Below, piece by piece: positions 42,755 through 47,313 of a DNA stretch of 64,000 bases (positions are counted from its first letter, which is position 1; each line of letters opens with the position of its first letter). The position numbers and the translations under genes were made by a program. The stretch spans positions 1,550,001-1,614,000 of the forward strand of contig NZ_JACIFH010000001.1 of assembly GCF_014197265.1 (NCBI RefSeq). The letters run 5' to 3'. The notes under the pieces were generated by a model, which was given only the letters and a program-made list of their open reading frames with translations, was not told the DNA's origin and did no database searches. This DNA comes from Microbacterium invictum. Lineage in GTDB: Bacteria; Actinomycetota; Actinomycetes; Actinomycetales; Microbacteriaceae.

Positions 42755-43591
42755 ATGTCCGCCGCCGGTACTGCCTTGCAGATCCACCAGGATGAGGTGC
42801 TCACGGGCGAGGCCGTCGCCCTCGACGTGCAGCCGGTCGGCTACTTCCTCAGCGCCTTGGGCGCATTGATCGACATGGTCTCCGGGCTCCTGCTGCTGAC
42901 CGCGTTCTGGCTCGCGGTGGGATGGGTCACCGGCTTCGATCTGCTGGCCCTGTCGCCCGCGCTCACGATCGCGTCGCTGGTCGTGGTGATCGTGGTGCTG
43001 CCGACCGCGATCGAGACGCTGAGCCGCGGCCGCAGCCTCGGGCGGCTGGTCGTGGGCTCGCGCATCGTGCGGGCCGACGGCGGCGCGGCGGGGTTCCGGC
43101 ACGCGTTCATCCGCGCTCTGACCGGAGTGCTGGAGCTGTGGTTCACGCTCGGCGCGGTCGCGGGCGTCGTCGGAGCGTTCACGCCGCGCTCGCAGCGCCT
43201 GGGCGATCTGCTGGCCGGCACCTACGCCGAGCGCACACGTGCGCCGCGGCTGCCGGCGCCGGTCGGCGCCGTGCCGGTGGCGCTGGCGGAGTGGGCCGTG
43301 GTGGCGGACGTGGCACGCCTGCCCGACCGCGTCGCACGGCGTGCCGCGCAGTTCGTTCGCGGCGCCGATGACCTGGACCCGGGGTCGCGCGTGCGCATCG
43401 CGGCCGAGATCGCCGCCGACGTGCGGCCCTACGTCGCGCCCGTGCCGGCCGCGGACCCCGAGACCTTCCTCCGCGCCGTCGTCGCCGTGCGCCGCGACCG
43501 CGAATACGCGTCGATCACGCTGGAGAACGAGCGGGCCGCGCGGCTGACTGCCGGTGTCGATGCCGCGCCGCGCGGCTTCCCGCAGCGCTGA
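42755..43591 (+). CDS. RDD family membrane protein
   Basis: 278-residue protein. The RDD domain (about residues 25-160) has a conserved Asp in helix 1 (LSALGALIDMVSGLLLLTAFW) and the RSLGRLVVGSRIV loop, ending with RSQRLGDLLAGTYAERT. The C-terminal 110 residues are soluble and specific to actinobacterial members. Function is unproven; some RDD proteins act as Na+/H+ antiporters. It is divergently paired with spoIIM as in other actinobacteria. It is followed by the repeat-rich region. Confidence 0.88.
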   Translation: MSAAGTALQIHQDEVLTGEAVALDVQPVGYFLSALGALIDMVSGLLLLTAFWLAVGWVTGFDLLALSPALTIASLVVVIVVLPTAIETLSRGRSLGRLVVGSRIVRADGGAAGFRHAFIRALTGVLELWFTLGAVAGVVGAFTPRSQRLGDLLAGTYAERTRAPRLPAPVGAVPVALAEWAVVADVARLPDRVARRAAQFVRGADDLDPGSRVRIAAEIAADVRPYVAPVPAADPETFLRAVVAVRRDREYASITLENERAARLTAGVDAAPRGFPQR

Positions 43592-43670
43592 GCGCCGCCG
43601 GCCTCGCGCACACCCGACCCAAGTCCACCTGACGCGCGCACCCCGGCATCCACCCCCAGCTGTGCTGTCA

Positions 43671-43979
43671 GATCGTGGTCGCCTCTGGCTGCCTCGTCCC
43701 CTGCGCTACCGGATCGTGGTCGCTCCTGGCCGCCTCACGACCACCGACCCCGCCACACGTGACCCCACTCCTCCCGGCACGAGCACCTCCGCACCCCGCA
43801 CCACCAGATCGTGGTCGCTCCTGGCCGCCTCACGACCACCGACCCCGCCACACGCGACTCCACTCCTCCCGGCACGAGCACCTCCGCACCCCGCGCCACC
43901 CGCACCACCAAATCGTGGTCGCTCCTGGCCGCCTCACGCCCAGCGACCCCACCACACGTGACTCCAAGTCGGCTCGACG
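43671..43979 (+). repeat. Four imperfect repeats sharing core GTGGTCGC-N-CTGGCCGCCTC
   Basis: Core starts at 43675, 43716, 43811 and 43915. The last three units are 95 and 104 bp apart; the 104-bp unit has a 9-bp insertion. The first is a short, diverged copy. Units 3 and 4 have ACCAC just before the core, forming ACCAC-N6-GTGGT hairpins. The 476-bp gap 43592-44067 holds these repeats, and after them only a GCCCC/GGGGC hairpin at about 44032-44044. I see no gene in it. Confidence 0.85.
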
Positions 43980-44067
43980 CCTCCTCCACAATGGCGGAGT
44001 CGGCTCTTCTGTCCACGGCTTGCGCCCCTGAGCCCCCTCGGGGCCCGCGACAGCCGACAGTGAATGG

Positions 44068-45078
44068 ATGCCGGTTCCTCCTCGTCCCCTGCCCGATCAA
44101 CTCGGCGACGCGTTCAGCTGCGGTGCCGCACGTGAGGCAGGCGCGACGCGAGGTCGGCTTCGCGCGATGGATCTCTCGGCTCCTTTTCGGGGCGTGCGGC
44201 AGCGCAGTTCGGCGCAGTCTGAGCCCATCGACGAGAACGAGCCACTCGCGCGCGACCGCGTGGCGTACGCGCGCGTGCGGCGTCTGGCCGAAGCGTACGC
44301 AACGATCATGCATCCGGATGCATTCTTCGTCGGGTTGACGGCGGTCGCTCTGCTCGAACTGCCGCTGCCCTGGAGGTTCGATGCCCACTCACCGTTGTCG
44401 GTTGCGGTGCCGCCTCCACATCGCGCGCCGCGAGGATCCGGCATCCGGGGCCATCGATTCTCACAGCGGCAGATGGCCGCGCGCACGTGCGATGGCCTTC
44501 GCGTTGCTGTGCCCGCAGACCTGTGGGCTTCGCTCGCCGGCACGCTCACCGAACGGGAACTCATCATCCTCGGCGACGCGATCGTCCGCATTCCGCGCGA
44601 TCGCGACGGCGCTCCACAACCCGAGCAGCAGCTGGCAACGATCCCCGAGCTCGAGGCAGCCGCGCGTCGCCCGGGACGAAGGCGCCGAGTCGAGCTCCTG
44701 CGTGCATGCTCGCGGGTGCGCATGGGGAGCATGTCGGCGCTCGAGACGGATTGCAGACTCACGATGGAGGACGCCGGCCTGCCCGAACCTGAGCTCGACG
44801 TCGAGATCTTGGACGCCCGTGGACGACTGATCGGCATCTCTGACGCGATCTACCGTCGCTGGGGAGTCGTCGTGGAGGTTGAGGGAAGGCACCACAGTAC
44901 GAGCGACGCTCAGTGGAGTCGCGATCTCGACAAGTACGCCGCATACGCGGCGGTCGGTTTGGAGCTCGTGCGCCTCGCGTCGAAGCACATCCGCGGGCCG
45001 AGGCCGCGCGGACCCGAGATCGTGCGTGCGGTGCTGCAGCGACGCGGCTGGCGTCCTGAGGCCTCGTCCGCGCAGTAG
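44068..45078 (+). CDS. PD-(D/E)XK nuclease-like protein (DUF559/VSR-like) with AbiEi-like N-terminus
   Basis: 336-residue protein. The N-terminal 40 residues (LGDAFSCGAAREAGATRGRL then FRGVR) look like the winged-helix start of AbiEi-type antitoxin-like proteins. The middle (about 60-190) is a conserved but unassigned domain. The C-terminal part is a DUF559-like restriction-endonuclease fold with Asp259 in ISDAIYRRW, Glu270 and Glu272 in VVVEVEGRHH, and a later RDLDKYAAYAAVGLELVRL. The candidate catalytic D...ExE set is therefore intact. Related genes are frequent and multicopy in Microbacteriaceae by recollection. It is flanked on both sides by related repeats. The biological role is unknown; DNA defence, repair or mobile behaviour are possible. 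Confidence 0.8.
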   Translation: MPVPPRPLPDQLGDAFSCGAAREAGATRGRLRAMDLSAPFRGVRQRSSAQSEPIDENEPLARDRVAYARVRRLAEAYATIMHPDAFFVGLTAVALLELPLPWRFDAHSPLSVAVPPPHRAPRGSGIRGHRFSQRQMAARTCDGLRVAVPADLWASLAGTLTERELIILGDAIVRIPRDRDGAPQPEQQLATIPELEAAARRPGRRRRVELLRACSRVRMGSMSALETDCRLTMEDAGLPEPELDVEILDARGRLIGISDAIYRRWGVVVEVEGRHHSTSDAQWSRDLDKYAAYAAVGLELVRLASKHIRGPRPRGPEIVRAVLQRRGWRPEASSAQ

Positions 45079-45170
45079 TCGCTCGATCGCGGACAGGTCC
45101 GCCAACTCCGGGCCCCCGGCCCGCGTGCGCCGCGTGTCGGCGGCGCTGCCGCACCGAGCGGCCCAGGACC

Positions 45171-45215
45171 ACAATCATGGTCGCCTCTGGCCGCCTCGGC
45201 CGGTAGACCCGGCCG
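45171..45215 (+). repeat. Single diverged copy of the repeat core
   Basis: ATGGTCGCCTCTGGCCGCCT begins at 45177 and is preceded by GACCACAATC, which gives a GACCA-N6-TGGTC hairpin. It is most like the first copy of the left cluster (43675), which links the repeats on both sides of the nuclease-like gene. Confidence 0.7.
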
Positions 45216-45348
45216 CACGCGAACCCAAGTCCGCTGGCTCGCGCGATCTGGCGCGGTCGTGCGTGGCCCGAAGTCACTCTGGGTGCCGGGGCTCCGGCCT
45301 CCACTCAGACGTGGGGACGCTCGTGACCTCTTTGAGTTCACGGAAGCA

Positions 45349-45788
45349 GCGACACGCGACCCGATTCGAGCGAACGGGACCGCGCCGAGAAACTGTGGTC
45401 ACGACTGGCCGCCTCAGCCGACGGGACACGGCAACACGCGACCCCGATTCGGGCGAACGGGACCACGCCGCAGAAACTGTGGTCACTACTGGCCGCCTAA
45501 GCCGACGCGACACGGCAACACGCGACCCCGATTCGGGCAACCGGGACCACGCCGCAGAAACTGTGGTCACTACTGGCCGCCTCAGCCGACGGGACACGGC
45601 AACACGCGACCCCGACTCGGGCGAACGGGACCGCGCCGCAGAAACTGTGGTCACTACTGGCCGCCTCAGCCGACGCGAGACGGCAACACGCGACCCCGAT
45701 TCGGGCGAACGGGACCACGCCGCAGAAACTGTGGTCACTACTGGCCGCATCAACCAACGGGACACGGCAACACGCGATCCCGATTTCC
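45349..45788 (+). repeat. 84-bp tandem repeat array, about five units
   Basis: GTGGTC cores at 45395, 45479, 45563, 45647 and 45731 are exactly 84 bp apart. Units differ at only a few positions; a diverged half-unit precedes the first. Each unit contains GACCAC-N12-GTGGTC, a possible hairpin. Because 84 is divisible by 3 the frames stay open through the array, but no start signal or domain supports [11 protein letters not shown]. The whole 777-bp gap 45079-45855 is non-coding: one single copy, this array, and the ahcY terminator. Confidence 0.9.
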
Positions 45789-45826
45789 CGCCGAGAACAC
45801 CAGCCACGCTCAGACACCCAGCCACG

Positions 45827-45848
45827 CCCCGGGACCACGCCCCCGGGG
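45827..45848 (-). terminator. Terminator hairpin of ahcY
   Basis: CCCCGGG and CCCGGGG form a 7-bp GC stem with an 8-nt loop, 7 bp beyond the ahcY stop. The loop side contains GGGACCACGCC, the same string that starts the hairpin in each 84-bp repeat. Confidence 0.7.
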
Positions 45849-45855
45849 CGCCGGC

Positions 45856-47313
<1,458 letters not shown>

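Follow-up and report, generated by a model that had tools for sequence, protein, structure and literature searches.

Do a nuclease gene and the repeats on either side of it form one functional unit and, if so, what does the protein do to the repeats? The question is raised by a locus of Microbacterium invictum within the stretch of DNA analysed here (64 kb, bases 1550001-1614000 of a single-contig genome of 3.58 Mb; hereafter, the window). An earlier, sequence-only reading of the window had taken the gene and the repeats for one unit, in the way that repetitive extragenic palindromes (REPs) accompany RAYT transposases. We found that palindromes recur beside homologues of this gene. The protein is probably a sequence-specific nuclease whose targets are the palindromes that flank its own gene and are scattered in the genome.

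Palindromes flank homologues of the nuclease gene

Homologue loci were picked by protein match, not by their palindromes, and were scanned for palindromes of any sequence. Control open reading frames (ORFs) of at least 250 amino acids were taken mechanically from the same loci, at least 2 kb from the gene. A palindrome flanked the gene in 48 of the 60 homologue loci as compared with 45 of the 228 control ORFs, and both sides were flanked in 28/60 loci versus 1/228 controls, the two sets being unmatched for gap length. Within 200 bp of the gene, palindromes scoring at least 18 were about 37 times as dense as in the far background; at 400-1600 bp their density was zero. At 40 loci, upstream palindromes stood at distances of 60-337 bp (median 112) from the matched gene, and downstream palindromes at a median of 37 bp; flanking palindromes scoring at least 16 were 41-77 bp long (median 63). 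The same rule was seen in all 25 further loci of the genus and in 16 of 19 loci outside it. Loci throughout the genus and in other families of the phylum show the association again with palindromes of different sequence, and we regard it as near certain.

The palindrome type found in the window was traced with a position weight matrix (PWM) derived from 25 units, of which 11 belong to this genome (two of these to the window) and 14 are dispersed in genomes G010, G011, G032 and G033. When 20 homologue loci (351 kb) were searched, all five matches scoring at least 15 lay within 320 bp of the gene (both sides in G008, one in G010 and two in G018). With both halves required to score at least 2, four of the five passed at a score of 8, while the same loci reversed gave none. 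In G032, three units stood 83-84 bp apart beside a homologue of 46% identity.

In another family of the same class (f22, genus g26; loci L260-L263), 6-7 nuclease matches were found per genome, and palindromes of a shared type (CGCCGAGCGTG in L260 and L262) were present at a nuclease gene.

Palindrome sequences change along with the protein

The left and right palindromes of a locus matched each other in 49 of 53 loci, compared with 23 of 1971 pairs of loci with proteins less than 45% identical, a cut that was set after a non-significant rank correlation had been seen. Between loci, palindrome similarity was common only at about 50% protein identity or more. For one clade of nucleases, clade A, the palindrome half-site GAGTGTCCAAGACACGCGG was counted in 198 Microbacterium genomes, allowing up to two mismatches. 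All 19 genomes with a clade-A nuclease had 6-117 matches, whereas at least six were found in only 7 of the 179 other genomes, both the clade-A limit (E 5.5e-71) and the six-match limit having been set after the lists were seen. The E limit coincides with a switch of palindrome type between L205 and L206, and the reversed pattern used as a control never matched more than once per strand. In three of the seven other genomes (G075, G200 and G015), the nuclease is matched in part, at 48-58% identity. The 117 matches of G220 correspond to up to about 58 copies per genome.

In the families checked, the palindrome family is scattered genome-wide, and its sequence changes along with the protein. The proposed REP/RAYT-like link between gene and repeats is borne out to the extent that the association recurs among homologues and that clade A co-occurs with its palindrome over whole genomes.

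The window-type repeats are dispersed over the genome

A sequence model derived from 23 units detected at least 47 units (E <=1.1e-6) at 14 places in the M. invictum genome, a lower bound, as 150 of 7718 first-look candidates were scored. At least 38 of these units lie outside the window, at 13 places. The repeats had been described as not noticed anywhere in the window but beside the gene; this is correct for the window, where the core GTGGTCRCTMCTGGCCGCCT (up to three mismatches) has no match elsewhere in the 64 kb, and incorrect for the genome, where the window-type repeats are a dispersed family and not a local one. Units read by eye were all intergenic, some after stop codons at convergent gene ends and others upstream of a start. 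No nuclease homologue was found at any of the 13 other places, seven of which had their surroundings examined. The other placed nuclease paralogues are at least 43 kb from the nearest unit; a fifth, a weak profile match, has no listed place. The sequence-only reading had counted repeats away from such genes as evidence against itself, and 13 of the 14 places literally present this picture. This is not decisive, because REPs too are dispersed away from their RAYT.

Of 34 spacings between window-type units, 27 were 82-86 bp. These values suggested multiples of 10.5 bp, but helical phasing as a general rule was rejected, since 31 palindrome pairs at all loci show none (mean deviation 0.229 vs 0.25 by chance).

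Genome G033 carries window-type palindromes (L058, L062, L064, L066-L071), and its listed homologues are only 36-37% identical; the palindromes were possibly orphaned after gene loss. A repeat of the form GTTGAGCGAG...CTCGCTCAAC, noticed by eye in several Microbacterium genomes (L058, L087 101-200 and L147), may be another palindrome family.

Architecture of the repeat units

Within the window, GTGGTCRCTMCTGGCCGCCT (up to three mismatches) matched 10 times, always on the plus strand, as against a mean of 0.03 and a maximum of 1 in 100 shuffles, in agreement with the ten or so core copies reported earlier on both sides of the gene. The matches start at the first base of every half-site or unit in Table 1 except the degenerate one. 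The unit is about 51 bp long and of rigid geometry, comprising a 21-nt half-site of approximately GGGGTCRC-nnn-TGGYCGCCTC, a 9-nt centre and the reversed half-site. The centre measured 9 nt in all but one of the units listed, only 8, 9 and 10 being permitted. Units are pseudo-palindromes, and most score on both strands.

Table 1. Features of the nuclease locus (positions in the window)
Feature	Position	Strand	Remarks
Whole block, from the RDD-family ORF to ahcY	43592..45855		2.26 kb; repeats, nuclease gene, repeats
Lone left half-site	43675..43695	+	core match; 41 bp ahead of the next unit
Pseudo-palindromic unit, 51 bp	43716..43766	+	half-site 21, centre 9, half-site 21; PWM score 41.1
Unit, 51 bp	43811..43861	+	PWM score 38.2
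Unit, 51 bp	43915..43965	+	PWM score 38.4
Gene for a 336-amino-acid protein	44068..45078	+	AbiEi-like part and Vsr/I-Bth0305I-like PD-(D/E)XK nuclease
Unit, 50 bp	45177..45226	+	PWM; centre 8 in place of 9
Degenerate unit	45313..45363	+	PWM score 18.6; absent from the earlier list
Unit, 51 bp	45395..45445	+	PWM; first of the 84-bp tandem array
Unit, 51 bp	45479..45529	+	PWM; 84-bp array
Unit, 51 bp	45563..45613	+	PWM; 84-bp array
Unit, 51 bp	45647..45697	+	PWM; 84-bp array
Unit, 51 bp	45731..45781	+	PWM; last of the 84-bp array

In the 84-bp array, 168-nt copies are 85-96% identical, apart from the first one (63%). The spacers are alike across the array, unlike the identical repeats with unique spacers of a CRISPR (clustered regularly interspaced short palindromic repeats) locus, and Rfam gave no match at E 0.1 in positions 43000-46500. 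The string that the repeats had been said to share with the ahcY terminator was recovered as the 13-mer CCGGGACCACGCC at 45829-45841, an exact copy of the array spacer at 45541, and is perhaps a remnant of the array. The neighbours of the nuclease gene are the RDD-family ORF and ahcY, which encodes S-adenosylhomocysteine hydrolase. A SpoIIM-family ORF (PF01944; 41743-42804, minus strand) is divergent from the RDD ORF.

The view of the repeats as hairpins was not confirmed for the window. Two of its units, folded as single-stranded DNA, were no better than shuffles (z -1.12 and +1.04), and RNAalifold on 23 units of the genome, a check for covariation of the arms, found 1 of 9 pairs compensated on one strand and 0 of 5 on the other. 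A hairpin of RNA or DNA is therefore unsupported as a common feature in the window's lineage. In other lineages it may be one: all three palindromes that were folded were stable (z -5.8, -8.6 and -12.6), and the palindrome arms change together (1546 matches vs 1349 +/- 19; 0 of 2000), much of this co-change consisting of a few lineage-wide changes, with the free position 8 also matching (48 vs 29).

The locus in relatives and recombination at palindromes

A comparison of empty and filled sites between RDD and ahcY had been proposed together with the sequence-only reading, and it did reveal sites without the block. Among 29 relatives with flanks examined, of 95 with an ahcY match, the RDD-ahcY order was found with the block absent in 19; here 6-532 bp separate the end of the RDD match from the ahcY stop, with no nuclease match. 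Other long palindromes (the GCGAGACAGCA type and two more) were noted in the RDD-ahcY gap of L144, L154, L145 and L150. In G214, three strong palindromes (L129, positions 233, 430 and 626; score 21-24) stand about 197 bp apart 5' of ahcY.

Most palindrome sites are shared by the sister genomes G072 and G162. One difference between them concerns a segment of about 11 kb between two palindromes of G072 (G072:C4:148963-160083; L306/L307/L334), which is missing in G162. At the corresponding position (G162:C2; L327 17384), a single palindrome joins the outer flanks. It is chimeric: its left part resembles the left copy and its right part the right copy. Because this chimera replaces the two palindromes and the intervening segment of G072, palindromes seem to recombine within the repeat. 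No fresh palindrome insertion was seen in the G072/G162 comparison, and no target-site duplication was obtained from it; a flank of L315 had no clear match in G162, and the site at C2:272574 is within a stretch alignable in both. At L297, L313 and L314, alignable sequence of the two genomes begins or ends at or beside a palindrome.

The nuclease and its proposed mode of action

The aligned model residues are 3-218 for the AbiEi-like part of the protein and 219-328 for its nuclease part. The latter has a Vsr-like fold with conserved acidic residues and is closest to the homing endonuclease I-Bth0305I and to Vsr. Across 20 homologues, E226, E270 and H276 are invariant and D259 is nearly so; because these catalytic residues are conserved, cutting by the protein is plausible. 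DUF559 matched 12 of the 20 homologues, though not the window protein, REase_MTES_1575 (PF18741) matched 12, and PADLOC models of AbiEi matched 10. A DUF559/AbiEi-like profile match was found in 79 of the 296 genomes of a phylum sample; phages gave no match and plasmids three distant ones, from Arthrobacter.

We propose that the protein most likely binds its own palindromes and nicks or cuts them, and in this way spreads or maintains them. This proposal is based on the association, the geometry of the units, the coordinated divergence, the co-occurrence and the conserved catalytic residues. The putative AbiEi-fold part and the PD-(D/E)XK domain together would make a sequence-specific nuclease. 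A presumed dimer would read two half-sites held in rigid register, probably in duplex rather than hairpin DNA, and nicking or cutting by the nuclease domain would take place there or close by. As such breaks are repaired, palindromes would be copied and homogenised and arrays built. The gene between palindromes would be the master locus and the dispersed copies non-autonomous, as in REP/RAYT, with an unrelated enzyme. That the protein recognises the palindromes is likely; that the nuclease spreads them is only slightly favoured.

Several observations weigh against this reading. Twelve of the 60 homologue loci have no palindrome scoring at least 13 within 400 bp, so that paralogues without repeats, which the sequence-only reading had likewise held to speak against it, do exist as a minority. 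Of these 12, L090 and L099 bear window-type units by PWM, and L084 and L085 are copies in this genome: no palindrome stands within 400 bp of L085, and the only related palindromes of L084 are 2-4 kb away. A further copy in this genome, L086, is flanked on either side and also has an 84-bp pair. Over 31 loci, the rank correlation between palindrome and protein similarity was not significant (rho 0.05; 525 of 2000). The clade-A gene occupies one orthologous locus in all 19 genomes; therefore, relatedness inflates the test, and co-divergence and co-occurrence partly reflect shared descent. The offset of the clade-A arms is not wholly fixed (36 in 80, 35 in 29 and 37 in 1 of 110 elements). G033 has 10 window-type matches at 8 places, yet only the distant homologues noted above. 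Between G072 and G162 there was no clean empty and filled site for a single palindrome, and for the window protein Pfam, NCBIfam and PADLOC gave no match at E 0.01.

Alternative explanations

The palindromes might be operators only, bound by an AbiEi-type repressor of its own and scattered genes, in which case recombination or selection would have spread the copies and the nuclease domain would act elsewhere. AbiEi is described, in passages of the literature, as repressing its own promoter through a long inverted repeat, the N-terminal part here may have the AbiEi fold, and the distances of the upstream palindromes suit such a role. We nevertheless consider this unlikely: palindromes are located downstream too, 28 of 60 loci have them on both sides, G220 may contain about 58 copies, some of the dispersed ones stand behind stop codons where genes converge, though others are upstream of a start, and the catalytic residues are kept. 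It is less probable still that the palindromes are the ends of a transposon, moving jointly with the gene between them and leaving solo ends or miniature derivatives as scattered copies. The 2.26-kb block is indeed absent from the 19 relatives, of 29 examined, in which the RDD-ahcY order was found, and 49 of 53 loci have matching palindromes left and right. However, the clade-A gene stays at one orthologous locus in 19 genomes while its palindromes are dispersed, either end comprises a whole palindrome, and units of the window type occur in arrays.

The gene might instead encode a defence or homing-like nuclease, with the palindromes serving as marks of self or decoys, which would accord with the kinship of the nuclease domain to I-Bth0305I and Vsr and with the PADLOC AbiEi matches in half of the homologues. 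In the window, however, the neighbours are not defence genes, and phages gave no match; we judge this explanation very improbable. Hardly any weight can be given to the idea that palindromes simply gather in intergenic gaps and that the gene merely has long ones. The units read by eye are intergenic, as it predicts, but only 1 of 228 control ORFs, unmatched in gap length, was flanked on both sides, and the palindromes on the two sides of a gene match one another and vary with the protein.

Comparison with known systems

To our knowledge, the bacterial palindromes known to pair with a cognate nuclease are those of the HUH-based REP/RAYT pairs. The layout described here points to a hitherto undescribed pairing of a nuclease with dispersed repeats in Microbacterium and relatives. 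If our reading is true, a second, unrelated enzyme has the same layout, and nuclease-palindrome pairing arose more than once. The many proteins now named DUF559 or hypothetical would also gain a function, and lineage-specific repeats between genes and some of the deletions in these genomes would be easier to explain. The many natural pairs of protein and palindrome with co-varying DNA specificity would offer a direct route to a recognition code.

Among related nucleases, Vsr acts on T:G mismatches and I-Bth0305I is intron-encoded, whereas the gene here is free-standing and flanked by palindromes. The AbiEi protein of the AbiE type IV toxin-antitoxin binds a palindrome of similar size, according to passages of the published work (PMC3985639); the protein described here differs in its added nuclease domain, in palindromes that stand on both sides and are dispersed, and, at the window locus, in having RDD and S-adenosylhomocysteine hydrolase as neighbours with no adjacent AbiEii toxin gene. 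The main text of the paper on VsrA of Caulobacter, a Vsr-like DUF559 protein (PMC12907096), does not contain the string 'palindrom'. In Microbacterium testaceum, REase_MTES_1575 is a Vsr-type restriction endonuclease domain fused to HEPN, transglutaminase and winged helix-turn-helix domains in a protein of more than 2000 residues, and the relevant passages mention no repeats (PMC3710099). Among the matches listed for open-licence PMC papers, none paired DUF559/Vsr-like genes with dispersed palindromes, and DUF559, RAYT and nuclease are absent from the main text of the RepRanger survey (PMC12306157).

The closest likeness is to REP/RAYT: a nuclease gene stands between palindromes, palindromes of the same family are dispersed as further intergenic copies, and they are lineage-specific. 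Vertical inheritance is another common trait, reported in passages on the RAYT gene (PMC8049555) and seen here for clade A. The differences begin with the enzyme, RAYTs being HUH/Y1 enzymes and the protein here PD-(D/E)XK. A search of the M. invictum genome for the Y1/HUH transposase (PF01797) gave 0 matches, with 5 of 14 controls positive. REPs are given as 20-40 bp in the abstract of PMC3733652, compared with the median of 63 bp for flanking palindromes here, and the consensus of the window family and of clade A is not a 20-40 bp palindrome with a terminal GTAG or CGTC tag. For recombinant RAYT of E. coli, passages of the same paper describe recognition of single-stranded REP DNA and cutting at GTAG (PMC3733652), whereas two window copies fold unstably. 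The system is thus REP/RAYT-like in its working and not a member of that group, because the defining transposase was not found in this genome. Tentatively, and stopping just short of endorsing it, we put forward 'PD-(D/E)XK REPtrons' as a new class of dispersed element in Actinomycetota, in which a putative AbiEi-fold dimer would read a duplex palindrome of 50-60 bp and a Vsr-like domain would cut or nick it, driving copying, array growth and recombination while the gene stays put and the palindromes become clade-specific. With an enzyme, a unit size and a probable mode of recognition that all differ from REP/RAYT, this could be a new kind of system; on a stricter view, it could be a variant of the REPtron kind.
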